Below are positions 11,943-25,663 of a stretch of 64,000 nucleotides of DNA, one piece after another. Each line of letters begins with the position of its first letter. The first letter of the stretch is position 1. The stretch is from Trichoderma breve (taxonomy: Eukaryota > Ascomycota > Sordariomycetes > Hypocreales > Hypocreaceae), in NCBI RefSeq assembly GCF_028502605.1, contig NC_079234.1:5766001-5830000 (forward strand), read 5' to 3'. Under the pieces are notes generated by a model, which saw only the letters and a list, made by a program, of their open reading frames with translations, did not search any database and was not told where the DNA came from. A program made the translations under genes and the position numbers.

Positions 11943-13084
11943 TTACTGGCCGGCATCCTTCTTGGAAACAAAGACGATCAAATCGACCACACGGCGACTA
12001 TAACCGTATTCGTTGTCGTACCAACTCATGACCTTTACAAAATTCTTGTTCAAGGCTATTCCGGCCTTGGCATCAAAAGTTGATGAGTGAGGGTCAGTAA
12101 GCATGTCAGTAGACACGATATCGTCCTCAGTATAGCCAAGGATACCTGCTCACAAGGATGTTATTAGCTTCAGTCCAAACAATCTATAGACTAAGAGTTT
12201 CATACCCTTGAGAGACCCCTCGGAAGCCTCTTTAATTGCAGCTTTCACCTCGTCATAAGTCACATCCTTCGCAAAGCGGACCGTGAAGTCGACAAGCGAA
12301 ACATTGACAGTGGGAACTCGGACAGACATGCCTGTGACCTTGCCTGCCAACTCGGGAATGACCTTTCCAACAGCCTTTGCGGCTCCAGTGGAGCTAGGAA
12401 TCAAATTCTGTGCAGCAGCACGACCGCCACGCCAATCCTTGGACGAAGGACCGTCGACAGTCTTTTGACTCGCAGTGTAAGCGTGGATAGCGGTCATAAG
12501 ACCCTCGACAATAGTAAATTTGTCATTGAGTATCTTGGCCAGCGGCGCCAGACAATTGGTTGTGCAAGAAGCGTTGGAGATGACATTGGCACCTGCGTAG
12601 GTGTCCTCATTGACACCCATCACATACATGGGGGCATCGGCAGAGGGAGCAGAGATGATGACCTTCTTGGCGCCACCCTTGAAATGGGCACTGGCTTTCT
12701 CTGTGGTAGTGAATACACCAGTGGATTCGACGATGTACTCAGCGCCGCTGTCTTTCCAAGGAATATTGGCAGGATCTTTCTCCTGGTAGTATTTGATCCT
12801 CTTGCCGTCGATGACCAAGTCCTTGCCATCGACCTTGATGTCTCCTTTGAAGCGGCCGTGAGTGGAGTCGTACTTGAACATGTATTCCTACAAAGGTGTA
12901 GCATTGAGATTAGCTCATAACCTCAGAAGGTGCAAAAACAAGAGGCCAGCTTCCTTACAGCGTAGTGAGGCTCAATGAAAGGATCGTTGAGTGCCACAAC
13001 TTCAACATCGCCCGTCTCGAGGGCGTTGCGAAGGACAACTCGACCGATTCGGCCGAAGCCGTTGATGCCAACCTTGGGAACCAT
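11943..13084 (-). CDS. gpd: Glyceraldehyde-3-phosphate dehydrogenase, probable second isozyme
   Basis: Three exons, 13084-12959, 12887-12206 and 12145-11943 (introns 71 and 60 nt), all in phase; 336 aa, full length. The NAD-binding [10 protein letters not shown] is at 7-16, the catalytic site [12 protein letters not shown] has Cys150, and the partner His is His177 (MTAIHAYT). [15 protein letters not shown] and the C-terminal helix follow. The enzyme oxidises glyceraldehyde-3-phosphate in glycolysis. Compared with the usual housekeeping fungal enzyme as I know it, several positions near the active site differ: TAIHAYT for [15 protein letters not shown] for RVPTPNVS, NEYGYS for NEWGYS. Together with its place beside P450s and a terpene synthase remnant, this suggests a cluster-associated, possibly inhibitor-resistant isozyme. 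The resistance idea is inference. Confidence 0.93.
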
Positions 13085-14184
13085 TTTTACAGAAAGACAA
13101 AAGACTTGTGAATTCTATAAGCAGCAATAAGATCACTATGCTTGAGAAAGATGAGACTGTAGGAGAAACGATGAGGAAAGATGAGAACAGAGAGGGGGAA
13201 AAGAGAGATCTTGTAGGGCAGGAGAAGAGGGGCAAACTCGATAGGAAGGCATCATGTATTGACTAGTTCTTTCTACAGAGGAATTCTGTACTATCTCAGA
13301 TGTGTAGTTGCGTCATATGCTACTGACTGTTGGGTGTTGTTGCGACAATATAACAGACTACATGTATACAATCCCATCACCGATCAGGCCCTCATCCAAC
13401 GCTTCATATCCCAGTACCTAGCCTGTACCTAACCTGTAACACCTGGAGGAACCGGAGCAACATGAGACAGTCGACTGTCTGCAAGCATCGTCCGATGCTC
13501 GTTAACACCACCTCCGGAGTGTGGTGGCGTGCAGTAGTGCCTGCTGCCATGTTGAGCGCTATTTGATGGTTGCAAGGGGGCGGGATCTGATAGACAGGGG
13601 TTTGGTGGTACTAAAGTGGCGATAGAGTCTCCTGTCAGGGATTCTCGAAATGCTTCCTACATTAGTATCCAGCCTTTTTTTTTTTTTTTTTAGCATCTGA
13701 ATGGATCTGTTAGGTCGCATCTATATCCTACGATTTCGCGGGTAGGTGGTTCATTTGCAACGTGCTTTTGTCCAATCAAAACTACCCGTGCTTCCTACTA
13801 GGATTACTATTGCCTCTCTGATGCCGCTGGTTCGTATCTAGCAACCTTCGAGAGGCAAATAGGATAATCGATACCGTGCTTATGACGATCTATTGGCATG
13901 ACTGAACCTTTGTAGTGAGCTTATGGGTGTAGCTGGTTAAATCACATTATTCGCTCATGGAAGAGGCGATTGGCAGTTCAAGCCCTGGTTCACCACTTAG
14001 GCTCATTTTGATACATTCAGCTGGATAGTAAGGAAGTGTAGTCTTTTTTCGCAATTTGTTTTTCTGTTCCCCTTCAATGAGCTTATGAAATTCCATATCC
14101 TCGCTCTCGCTTCTCCCCATCACGATATTTGGCAAACAAATGATACTATACTCAAGGAGATACATGAATCGTAAACCGAAGACA
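13085..14184. other. Intergenic region (GAPDH promoter and 3' flank of the terpene synthase remnant)
   Basis: 1.1 kb without a supportable gene. Purine-rich sequence follows the GAPDH start (13130-13220), and a 17-nt T run lies at 13675-13691. A 72-aa minus-strand ORF near 13947-14165 shows no family features. Confidence 0.45.
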
Positions 14185-14543
14185 TCAAGCTGCGTGGTTC
14201 ACTACAACTGTCATGCCACAATGGATATGACGCTCAATCTTTCCAAGGCCATATAATGTAGATGTAAGGCTGTAAGTGATATTAGCACGTCATGACCATC
14301 GGCGGACTTTCGGATTATTTTTGCCACATACCTCCACAAAAGATTGCCCGTCATGTTGTGCCTGCATCCAACGATGTATCTGTCTACTTCCCCGACCCAC
14401 TGAGTCTCTCTCTGTGATAATTGCGAGAAGATACTGGGCTGCGGCATCAAATCATTAATATTCTTGAGTTCCACACAGGTGTTCTGAGATGGTTTGGAAC
14501 CTACATATACGTAGTAAATTTTCAGGTGCCATAGGCGAACCAT
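14185..14543 (-). pseudogene. Remnant of a class I terpene synthase (C-terminal exons only)
   Basis: On the minus strand, a frame reading QWVGEVDRYIVGCRHNMTGN then LLW runs to a good donor (GTATGT at 14331). The next exon begins at 14269 after a TTACAG acceptor, with a CTAAT branch-like site; the 62-nt intron restores LLWSLTSTLYGLGKIE and ends with a stop at 14185. This resembles the last active-site helix of fungal sesquiterpene synthases (W-x-x-G-N-x-x-W-S-x-x-S/T-x-R-Y), although the usual Arg of 'RY' reads Leu. The frame is open upstream only to about 14543. The next several hundred bases are AT-rich and show no metal-binding DDxxD/E or NSE motif, so most of the gene is missing. Family assignment rests on a short motif. 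Confidence 0.5.
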
Positions 14544-23733: not shown

Positions 23734-24238
23734 ATCCGGAGACGGGGACAGGGTTACGTGTAGTTAGTTGCAGATGAGCATCAAGCACAGTGTCGTCAAG
23801 AAATATGGCCTGGTCGGTTCAAAGCCCTCCCTTGTAGGCGGTTGGGTTGAAGTAGGACAGCCTTGTACCTAGTAGACTGTGAAATTCATATTATATATCG
23901 CAAAGATTATCTTCCAAGTTGTTGATTGGAATCTAGATAACTGTTGCTCTGCATTCTGATGCGACCGATCTCATTGGGGATGCTATTATATATGATTTTC
24001 TGAATGCCGAGGGTTCTATTAATACTAAATAGTGGTGGATGAATTCATCCCCTGCCATTCCGAGCCGAACAATTTGCAAGACATTAACTGCATGACACTC
24101 TTTACTATCAAACGCGCCTATACTAACCAAGCGATCTTATATACATGTATACTGATTCAAGCTTTTCGGTCTCATGGTCCCTGATAGTTACAGGTTCAAT
24201 GTAGTACTGAGGGTATGAGAGACAGCTACATCTAACGG
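23734..24238. other. Intergenic region
   Basis: About 500 bp between two convergent genes. One 65-aa minus-strand ORF overlaps this gap and has no domain-like features. Nothing else seen. Confidence 0.4.
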
Positions 24239-25663
24239 TTACGCAGTGCCCTCGCCTGTGGCGACCCTAATAGCTTTCACTGCAGCGTGTGTAAGCAACC
24301 AATTGTTCCGCACCCAACTCTGGTCGATTTCTCCGGTTAATGTATGCTTTGACTCCAAAGTTTCGAAATCAGGGCAGTCCGACTGTAACATGCCCAACTG
24401 TAACATCTCCAACCAAGCCTCGCGACGTTTTGAAGGGGCCAGAATCTGGTTCATCCAACTCGAAACTGTGTTGGACTTGAGAAGCTGGATAGCACCGAGC
24501 ATAGGTGTGCGGCCACTAAACTGACACTTCCATGCTTTCATGCTTACACCCTCCCGCCGAAGCCAAGTTGCCGCCAATCTGTCGTCTCTATAAAGTGCGT
24601 AGTCAAGCGTCCACGCTACAGCGATGAGAACCAGCAAGCCTACCCCATCCCAACCTTTCTGTGCCGCGACGTATGTCATGGTAAGAAGTTGCAATGTAGC
24701 TAGCCCGCGCAGTGCGAGTGCCAGCGCCGTTTTAGGACGTGCTGTGATGTCCAAGATCATAGGTTTGTTGACAAGCCCATCAACGACTGCCCGGGATCCT
24801 CTGTAGAGATACCAGGTTGATGCGTTCTCATGTATCGCTGTGAGCATGTAGGCATCAGAATGGTTAGCTTAATTGCTTTCCAGGTATCTTGGGGGTCTAA
24901 TGACTTTGATGCTATGCCGTGCTACACGGAAGGCGATGCTGATGAGAATGGCTGCAGCAGTCCCGTATAGACCGAGCAGGATAGTTGAGACACAGGCGCC
25001 AATTAAAGAAAGGATGAAAAGAACCTCGATGAGAAAAAATAACCACGTAACGGAGGGGCTATTTGTTTTTCTTTTGCCAGCATCGATGGTGCAGTCCAGA
25101 ATATACAACGTTTGATGGCGGCTGAAATGAGGGCCTCCAATATTCTCATTTGTCTGGCCCTTGGAATTGTTGCTTGTCTCTGCGGTAACGGCATTATCTT
25201 TTCCTTCTTCTGGATTGCGAATAAGTTCATTGGCAGCAATCAGGGCGGCCAAGTCAGCTGGGATCTCAATATCACGAGCTTTGGGAATGATATATCTCGT
25301 AAGTATATCGCTTGCGGCTCCGTTTGCGCAAGGGAAGACACTGCCCCAGTTGGCGTCCCAGACAGTGTGCCGAAGCTCGCTGACGGACGAAGCGCGATCG
25401 AGAAAGTCGGCACCTTCGCGCAAGAAGGCAGCAAGGCTGTCCAGAATACCCAGACGGGGGAAGAGGCTGACGCCAATGAATCCTGCAAGCGACGTCTGGC
25501 CTACCAACCAGTGAGACAAACCACTGCCGGAGAGGTAAATTTCCAGTGGAAGGATGCCAACCCACTCGAAGATAATCTGAAGCTGAGACGCGGCGACGGG
25601 TAGGATTGGAGGATCGGCGCCATCTGTACCGTAGCTAGCCGGGGCAGCCATTGAGATGTTCAT
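24239..25663 (-). pseudogene. Membrane protein of unknown function, interrupted by one in-frame stop
   Basis: One frame runs from the ATG at 25663 to the stop at 24239, about 474 codons, broken only by TAA at 24871-24869. Coding-like sequence continues in the same frame on both sides: IRPPRYLESN, stop, ANHSDAYMLTAIHENASTWYLY. I recall a fungal family of uncharacterised membrane proteins with a similar 'RPxxYLxxNE...ML.. HENAS.WYLY.G.R..VD.L.NK' stretch, which supports one ancestral gene. Hydrophobic segments lie at about 210-250 and 310-350. An intron removing the stop was considered; the only possible donor is poor and would delete the conserved stretch. It could be a recent nonsense allele, readthrough or a sequencing error. 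Function unknown. Confidence 0.65.

Follow-up and report, generated by a model that had tools for sequence, protein, structure and literature searches.

The window analysed here, a stretch of 64,000 nucleotides from Trichoderma breve (C3:5766001-5830000 of a 38.5 Mb genome in nine contigs), harbours a locus that is probably the residue of a hep/vir-type sesquiterpene cluster, from which the terpene synthase has been lost while a glyceraldehyde-3-phosphate dehydrogenase (GAPDH) of the self-resistance type has been kept. An initial annotation, made from the sequence alone, had proposed a partly decayed terpenoid cluster that still carries a GAPDH, perhaps for self-resistance. Its observations were partly confirmed and its interpretation was partly supported: the synthase is indeed lost, but several of the genes it had called broken or doubtful turned out to be intact. 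The locus represents a known cluster type in decayed form and comes with a testable claim on a retained resistance gene. The features at the centre of this reading are the following:

13084-11943, minus strand: complete GAPDH of the predicted resistance type, 336 aa, exons 13084-12959, 12887-12206 and 12145-11943, splice model without internal stop
14483-14188, minus strand (= C3:5780188-5780486): terpene synthase remnant, last 80 of 371 residues, with frame changes and one intron recognisable by eye
15410-17377, plus strand: cytochrome P450 (P450) no. 1, 533 aa, seven exons, intact in the splice model
19890-17725, minus strand: P450 no. 2, 494 aa, eight exons, intact in the splice model, putative cluster member
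21206-21665, plus strand: third P450, dead, C-terminal part in three frames with stops

Sequence comparison supports the assignment of the window GAPDH to the resistance type. The protein showed 97.6-97.9% identity to T. koningii GAPDH 1 and to the T. virens enzyme of PDB entry 6M5X, and 97.9% to T. virens Gv29-8. Among PDB matches, 6M5X (labelled Trichoderma virens Gv29-8), which we take to be the enzyme of the heptelidic-acid self-resistance study, scored 725.5 bits and the next best 542.6 bits. Cys150 and His177, presumably the catalytic residues, are both kept in the model translation. Figures for relatives of this GAPDH and of P450 no. 1 refer to 120 proteins listed for each, in which members of 90% clusters stand unnamed behind one representative. 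The closest GAPDH relatives among the matches listed were those of T. afarasin, T. simmonsii, T. aggressivum and T. harzianum (98.5-99.4%), and by their taxonomy we assume the host to belong to the Harzianum group. The window protein is full length, and with strain SZMC 28013 included identity across these relatives was 98.2-99.4%.

A second GAPDH was identified at C4:3606617-3607268, 71.4% identical to the window copy. In a tree of 32 rows (the genome's two copies together with 30 proteins picked by hand from the 120 listed; A. oryzae hepG was not among the rows), the window GAPDH fell into a 12-row set with support 92, comprising itself, ten named Trichoderma proteins including T. koningii GAPDH 1 and T. 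virens, and one further protein. The window GAPDH is orthologous to these cluster-type proteins. Aureobasidium QM012_005590 was placed next to this set with support 100, although its branch is long and its exact position less certain, and the C4 copy fell outside. The second-type GAPDH of the initial annotation is an intact three-exon gene standing apart from the C4 copy. The existence of another GAPDH in the genome, for which the annotation had proposed to look, and the separation of the two in the tree rule out that the window copy is the housekeeping gene. The GC content at third codon positions (GC3), 0.822 in the main exon of the C4 gene versus 0.585 in the window GAPDH, fits a C4 copy acting as highly expressed housekeeping enzyme. 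Furthermore, alignment of 13 cluster-type rows against 107 others (P0012 and P0013 of the 120 having been dropped beforehand) revealed 22 positions uniform in the former and present in at most 3% of the latter. The Aureobasidium protein has 12 of these 22.

Only a remnant of the synthase is left at this locus, as the initial annotation had claimed. When the 371-residue T. velutinum synthase P0242 was compared with the window, only residues 292-371 matched, in two frames (E 1.4e-13; 51% and 68% identity for the remnant pieces), and residues 1-291 had no window match better than E 1.4. A genome-wide six-frame search with P0242, which scores the best candidates only (E up to 0.01), returned four matches: the two remnant pieces, C3:3632766 (26%) and the weak C3:1255290 (23%), the latter two being the only ones among seven synthase loci elsewhere in the genome that match the T. 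velutinum protein. A full-length counterpart was not found in this genome by that search, and with 26% as the best match outside the locus there is no sign that the synthase was relocated.

The identity of the remnant was settled by a protein search with its 44-residue piece, which gave three candidates and two matches, P0241 (212 residues, E 1.2e-13) and P0242 (E 2.5e-6). A first search for the synthase, with the open reading frames of eight PF19086 matches (seven places) as queries, had yielded nothing convincing, and a Pfam scan of the remnant pieces matched no synthase family. In four of the genome's seven loci (L017-L020; not L014-L016) the best alignment of the C-terminal piece lay immediately downstream of the PF19086 match and on the same strand, and at L018-L020 it outscored all 20 shuffles. 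Two frame-0 pieces compared alongside failed to outscore the shuffles at each of the seven loci; one of them did match the T. velutinum synthase in the later comparison. P0241, from a 953-base contig, carries the same remnant and the stretch downstream of it (window 13810-14447) in the same shifted frame, with 85% and 77% identity in two stretches. Judged from this alignment, the synthase lesion is common to another strain or species, which makes it probable that the lesion is old and the synthase long dead.

The age of the lesion bears on the question why the GAPDH is still intact. The cluster might simply be dying with the GAPDH not yet hit, an account that would agree with the death of three other genes, with an unusual serine at position 267 and with a GC3 that gives no sign of high expression. 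A merely lagging gene would not be expected to be full length and so strongly conserved in the five relatives named above, nor does such a lag sit well with a synthase that looks long dead in P0241 as well, and we regard this account as rather unlikely. Retention of the GAPDH by selection is plausible because it differs from its T. velutinum counterpart at only 7 of 336 sites, compared with 51% and 68% identity for the synthase pieces.

Linkage in relatives was read from the GAPDH and a partner gene lying on contigs of equal size, which holds if equal size means the same contig. A table compiled by hand from 10 GAPDH, 8 P450 and 2 synthase matches gave three coincidences. In T. afarasin the relatives of the GAPDH and of P450 no. 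1 share a contig size of 1172291 bases, and in Aureobasidium QM012_005590 (GAPDH) and QM012_005596 (P450 no. 1 relative) are both on a contig of 64144 bases, these locus tags being the only indication of between-gene distance in the relatives. In T. velutinum the GAPDH and the full-length synthase P0242 are both on a contig of 2267390 bases. On this reading the GAPDH is linked to secondary-metabolism genes in all three, and the equal-sized contigs, for P450 no. 1 in two genera, rule out the alternative raised in the initial annotation, that the GAPDH and P450 no. 1, or the GAPDH and the synthase, are ordinary unlinked neighbours.

Two intact P450 genes flank the remnant on the side away from the GAPDH. 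Relatives of P450 no. 1 among the matches listed came from T. afarasin, T. citrinoviride, Xylaria species, A. oryzae and Aureobasidium; 506 of 533 residues are identical to the T. afarasin entry, which represents 23 clustered sequences. The trichodiene oxygenase-like character assigned to one of the P450s was not confirmed; the term occurs only as the label of a 43% relative of P450 no. 1 (P0143). P450 no. 2 was ruled out as a dead gene: the apparent frame change before its heme-binding loop is a normal intron. The third P450 is dead, as initially described. Its heme-binding piece (21480-21665, plus strand) matched PF00067 with E 5.3e-8, and pieces upstream could be made out by eye in other frames; three of these had no Pfam match. 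The remnant was not recovered when the 120 P450 no. 1 relatives listed served as queries. Elsewhere in the genome, the terpene synthase locus L017 (C2:3460700-3470600) contains a P450 piece (C2:3463701-3463928) sharing 51% identity with the N-terminus of P450 no. 1, and is possibly a related sesquiterpene cluster.

The remaining genes of the locus include further candidates for cluster membership:

11383-10855, minus strand: SnoaL-like protein, 140 aa, intact, exons 11383-11263 and 11156-10855, PF12680 33.2 bits
23254-23733, plus strand: ABM-like protein, 116 aa, intact, exons 23254-23319, 23377-23496 and 23569-23733, PF03992 30.5 bits
25678-24239, minus strand: membrane-type protein, one in-frame stop within a possible 90-base intron (24927-24838)
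25955-26207: AAAG microsatellite, 63 perfect copies, between the membrane-type protein and the MFS scrap
26651-27103, plus strand: stop-containing scrap of an MFS exporter, on the far side of the AAAG microsatellite

The SnoaL-like and ABM-like proteins were named correctly in the initial annotation, their domains scoring above the Pfam cut-offs of 27 bits (PF12680) and 23.1 bits (PF03992), and both are intact genes, of two and three exons respectively; their best PDB matches (E 0.015 and 0.021, respectively) are too weak to use. The membrane protein described as broken does contain its one in-frame stop. Since by eye this stop falls within the possible intron, which has a good branch site and a weak donor, the gene may or may not be broken; it has no Pfam match. 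The dead exporter beyond the microsatellite was corroborated as an MFS scrap whose stop-bounded piece 26651-26887 (plus strand) matched PF07690 with E 3e-6 and 26.8 bits, under the cut-off of 33.4, and two further pieces had no Pfam match. No pathway regulators were recognised at the locus, the candidates amounting to a weak PF04082 match at 14866-15234 (15.8 bits, under the cut-off of 23). At the left cluster edge, a 337-residue open frame without Pfam match (9006-10019, minus strand) could be a regulator. Outside the locus, a UbiX/UbiD-like decarboxylase pair beside a Zn2Cys6 regulator was seen by eye only, at 29759-32750 (minus strand) and 33056-35372 (plus strand).

That P450 nos. 1 and 2 and the ABM-like and SnoaL-like proteins are all intact, and that P450 no. 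1 is so well conserved in T. afarasin, would also suit a working shorter pathway or detoxification set acting on a terpenoid made elsewhere or taken up. The seven other synthase loci could supply such a substrate, but only the two distant ones resemble the T. velutinum synthase at all, and we consider this explanation improbable. The locus is most simply explained by a pathway that has died and a spare target that has survived it.

The vir cluster of Trichoderma virens, within which we take a dedicated GAPDH to lie, comes from the same genus and, as seen in the Gv29-8 protein, from a species whose GAPDH is 97.9% identical; in contrast to it, the window locus has lost the synthase. The accessible text of PMC7303927 gives this cluster eight genes. 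The hep cluster of Aspergillus oryzae (hepA-hepH, hepR, hepS) consists, according to the available portion of PMC9394295, of a synthase, an ABM-like protein, four P450s, an MFS transporter, a GAPDH and two regulators, and by comparison with this composition the window residue has the make-up of a hep cluster minus the first enzyme and more. Alike are the GAPDH isozyme beside P450s and an ABM-like gene, the latter a candidate counterpart of hepB, and P450 no. 1 has an A. oryzae relative, P0127 (65%). Unlike the complete cluster, the window locus has no working sesquiterpene synthase, two intact P450s and one dead one instead of four, a scrap with stops in place of the MFS exporter HepF, and no recognised regulators. 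The A. oryzae hep-cluster GAPDH isozyme is reported as resistant in the part of PMC11502334 available, and that of PMC10691236 cites the cluster for heptelidic acid as an instance of self-resistance. Against T. koningii GAPDH 1 and 6M5X, to which it is nearly identical with catalytic residues kept, the window GAPDH differs in having no working synthase beside it, and its resistance is putative.

Alternatively, the GAPDH could owe its retention to a function in secondary metabolism or in regulating it, the decay of the synthase being incidental. The titles of Pachauri 2019, on a dedicated GAPDH in volatile sesquiterpene biosynthesis of T. virens, and Bansal 2021, on a dual GAPDH role in volatile and non-volatile metabolites, point in this direction and away from resistance. 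On the other hand, a role tied to the sesquiterpenes of the cluster should have vanished with the synthase, and the hep literature, in the passages available (PMC9394295, PMC10691236), treats cluster GAPDHs as resistance genes; we hold this alternative to be doubtful.

Several further points weigh against a residue with a self-resistance GAPDH, which nevertheless remains our preferred reading. We assume 6M5X and T. koningii GAPDH 1 to be the resistant enzymes. Ser182 and Val236, which belong to the 22 cluster-type positions and by sequence presumably lie near the substrate-phosphate site, are Thr and Ala in the Aureobasidium relative and therefore cannot be a general resistance code. Ser267 of the window GAPDH is Pro in 12 of 12 relatives compared, a possible sign of relaxed constraint. 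P450 no. 1 has relatives in T. citrinoviride (81%) and T. cornu-damae (74%), neither of which contributed a same-type GAPDH to the 120 proteins listed. For T. velutinum, T. barbatum and T. virens, the named P450 entries in the list (55-56%) sit on contigs differing in size from those of the GAPDHs of these species. The synthase search gave no match in T. virens, T. koningii or named Harzianum species, which may reflect the short 44-residue query. Sequences of hepA-hepH and vir4 were not identified, so that the synthase, P450 no. 2, ABM-like and MFS genes are putative hep counterparts by family. Finally, deletion of vir4, the synthase of the vir cluster, does not abolish heptelidic acid in T. 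virens as far as the accessible text of PMC10878821 describes it. The vir-type cluster and its GAPDH may thus have served other sesquiterpenes, and the lost product may have been one of these; the link to heptelidic (koningic) acid drawn in the initial annotation stands as homology, from which we infer heptelidic acid as a plausible lost product.

A mechanism consistent with these observations would start from an inhibitor such as heptelidic (koningic) acid that modifies normal GAPDH at its catalytic Cys, so that a spare GAPDH would keep glycolysis going. This spare enzyme would formerly have protected against the fungus's own product and would now do so against what neighbours such as T. virens and T. 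koningii produce. With synthase, one P450 and perhaps the exporter dead, the genome can hardly make the product from this locus now, and the intact remainder is the resistance-type GAPDH, two P450s, the ABM-like and the SnoaL-like protein. The proposal of a resistance gene kept after loss of the product fares accordingly: a resistance-type GAPDH and a lost synthase are both there, and resistance of the window protein itself and selection for resistance as the reason for its retention are what we infer, the latter being plausible. It is a tentative possibility that a Trichoderma species group dropped a GAPDH-killing sesquiterpene and kept the immune GAPDH, perhaps with the P450s as degraders, turning a weapon into a shield against producers.

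GliT, and perhaps GpdB, are precedents for a protection gene without its pathway. In the available part of PMC11502334, GpdB, a resistance-type GAPDH isozyme likened here by description and not by sequence, is found throughout the Aspergillus species of one tree, A. nidulans being the exception, and resistance-type GAPDHs may therefore exist beyond known producers. GliT, following the accessible text of PMC7384679, is present in fungi not making gliotoxin, protection against outside toxin being shown for its regulator in A. nidulans. It is likewise a self-protection gene without its pathway, but an oxidoreductase whose resistance role is seen as ancestral, whereas the window GAPDH would be a spare target that the decay of a cluster left behind. 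A report of this decayed locus was not encountered in the accessible text of the literature searched.

Resistance-gene-guided genome mining reads a spare target gene beside biosynthetic genes as the sign of an inhibitor pathway. If our reading is true, a resistance-type gene that outlived its synthase would be a clear counter-example to this rule, and tolerance to a competitor's antibiotic would be predicted in relatives of biocontrol fungi.

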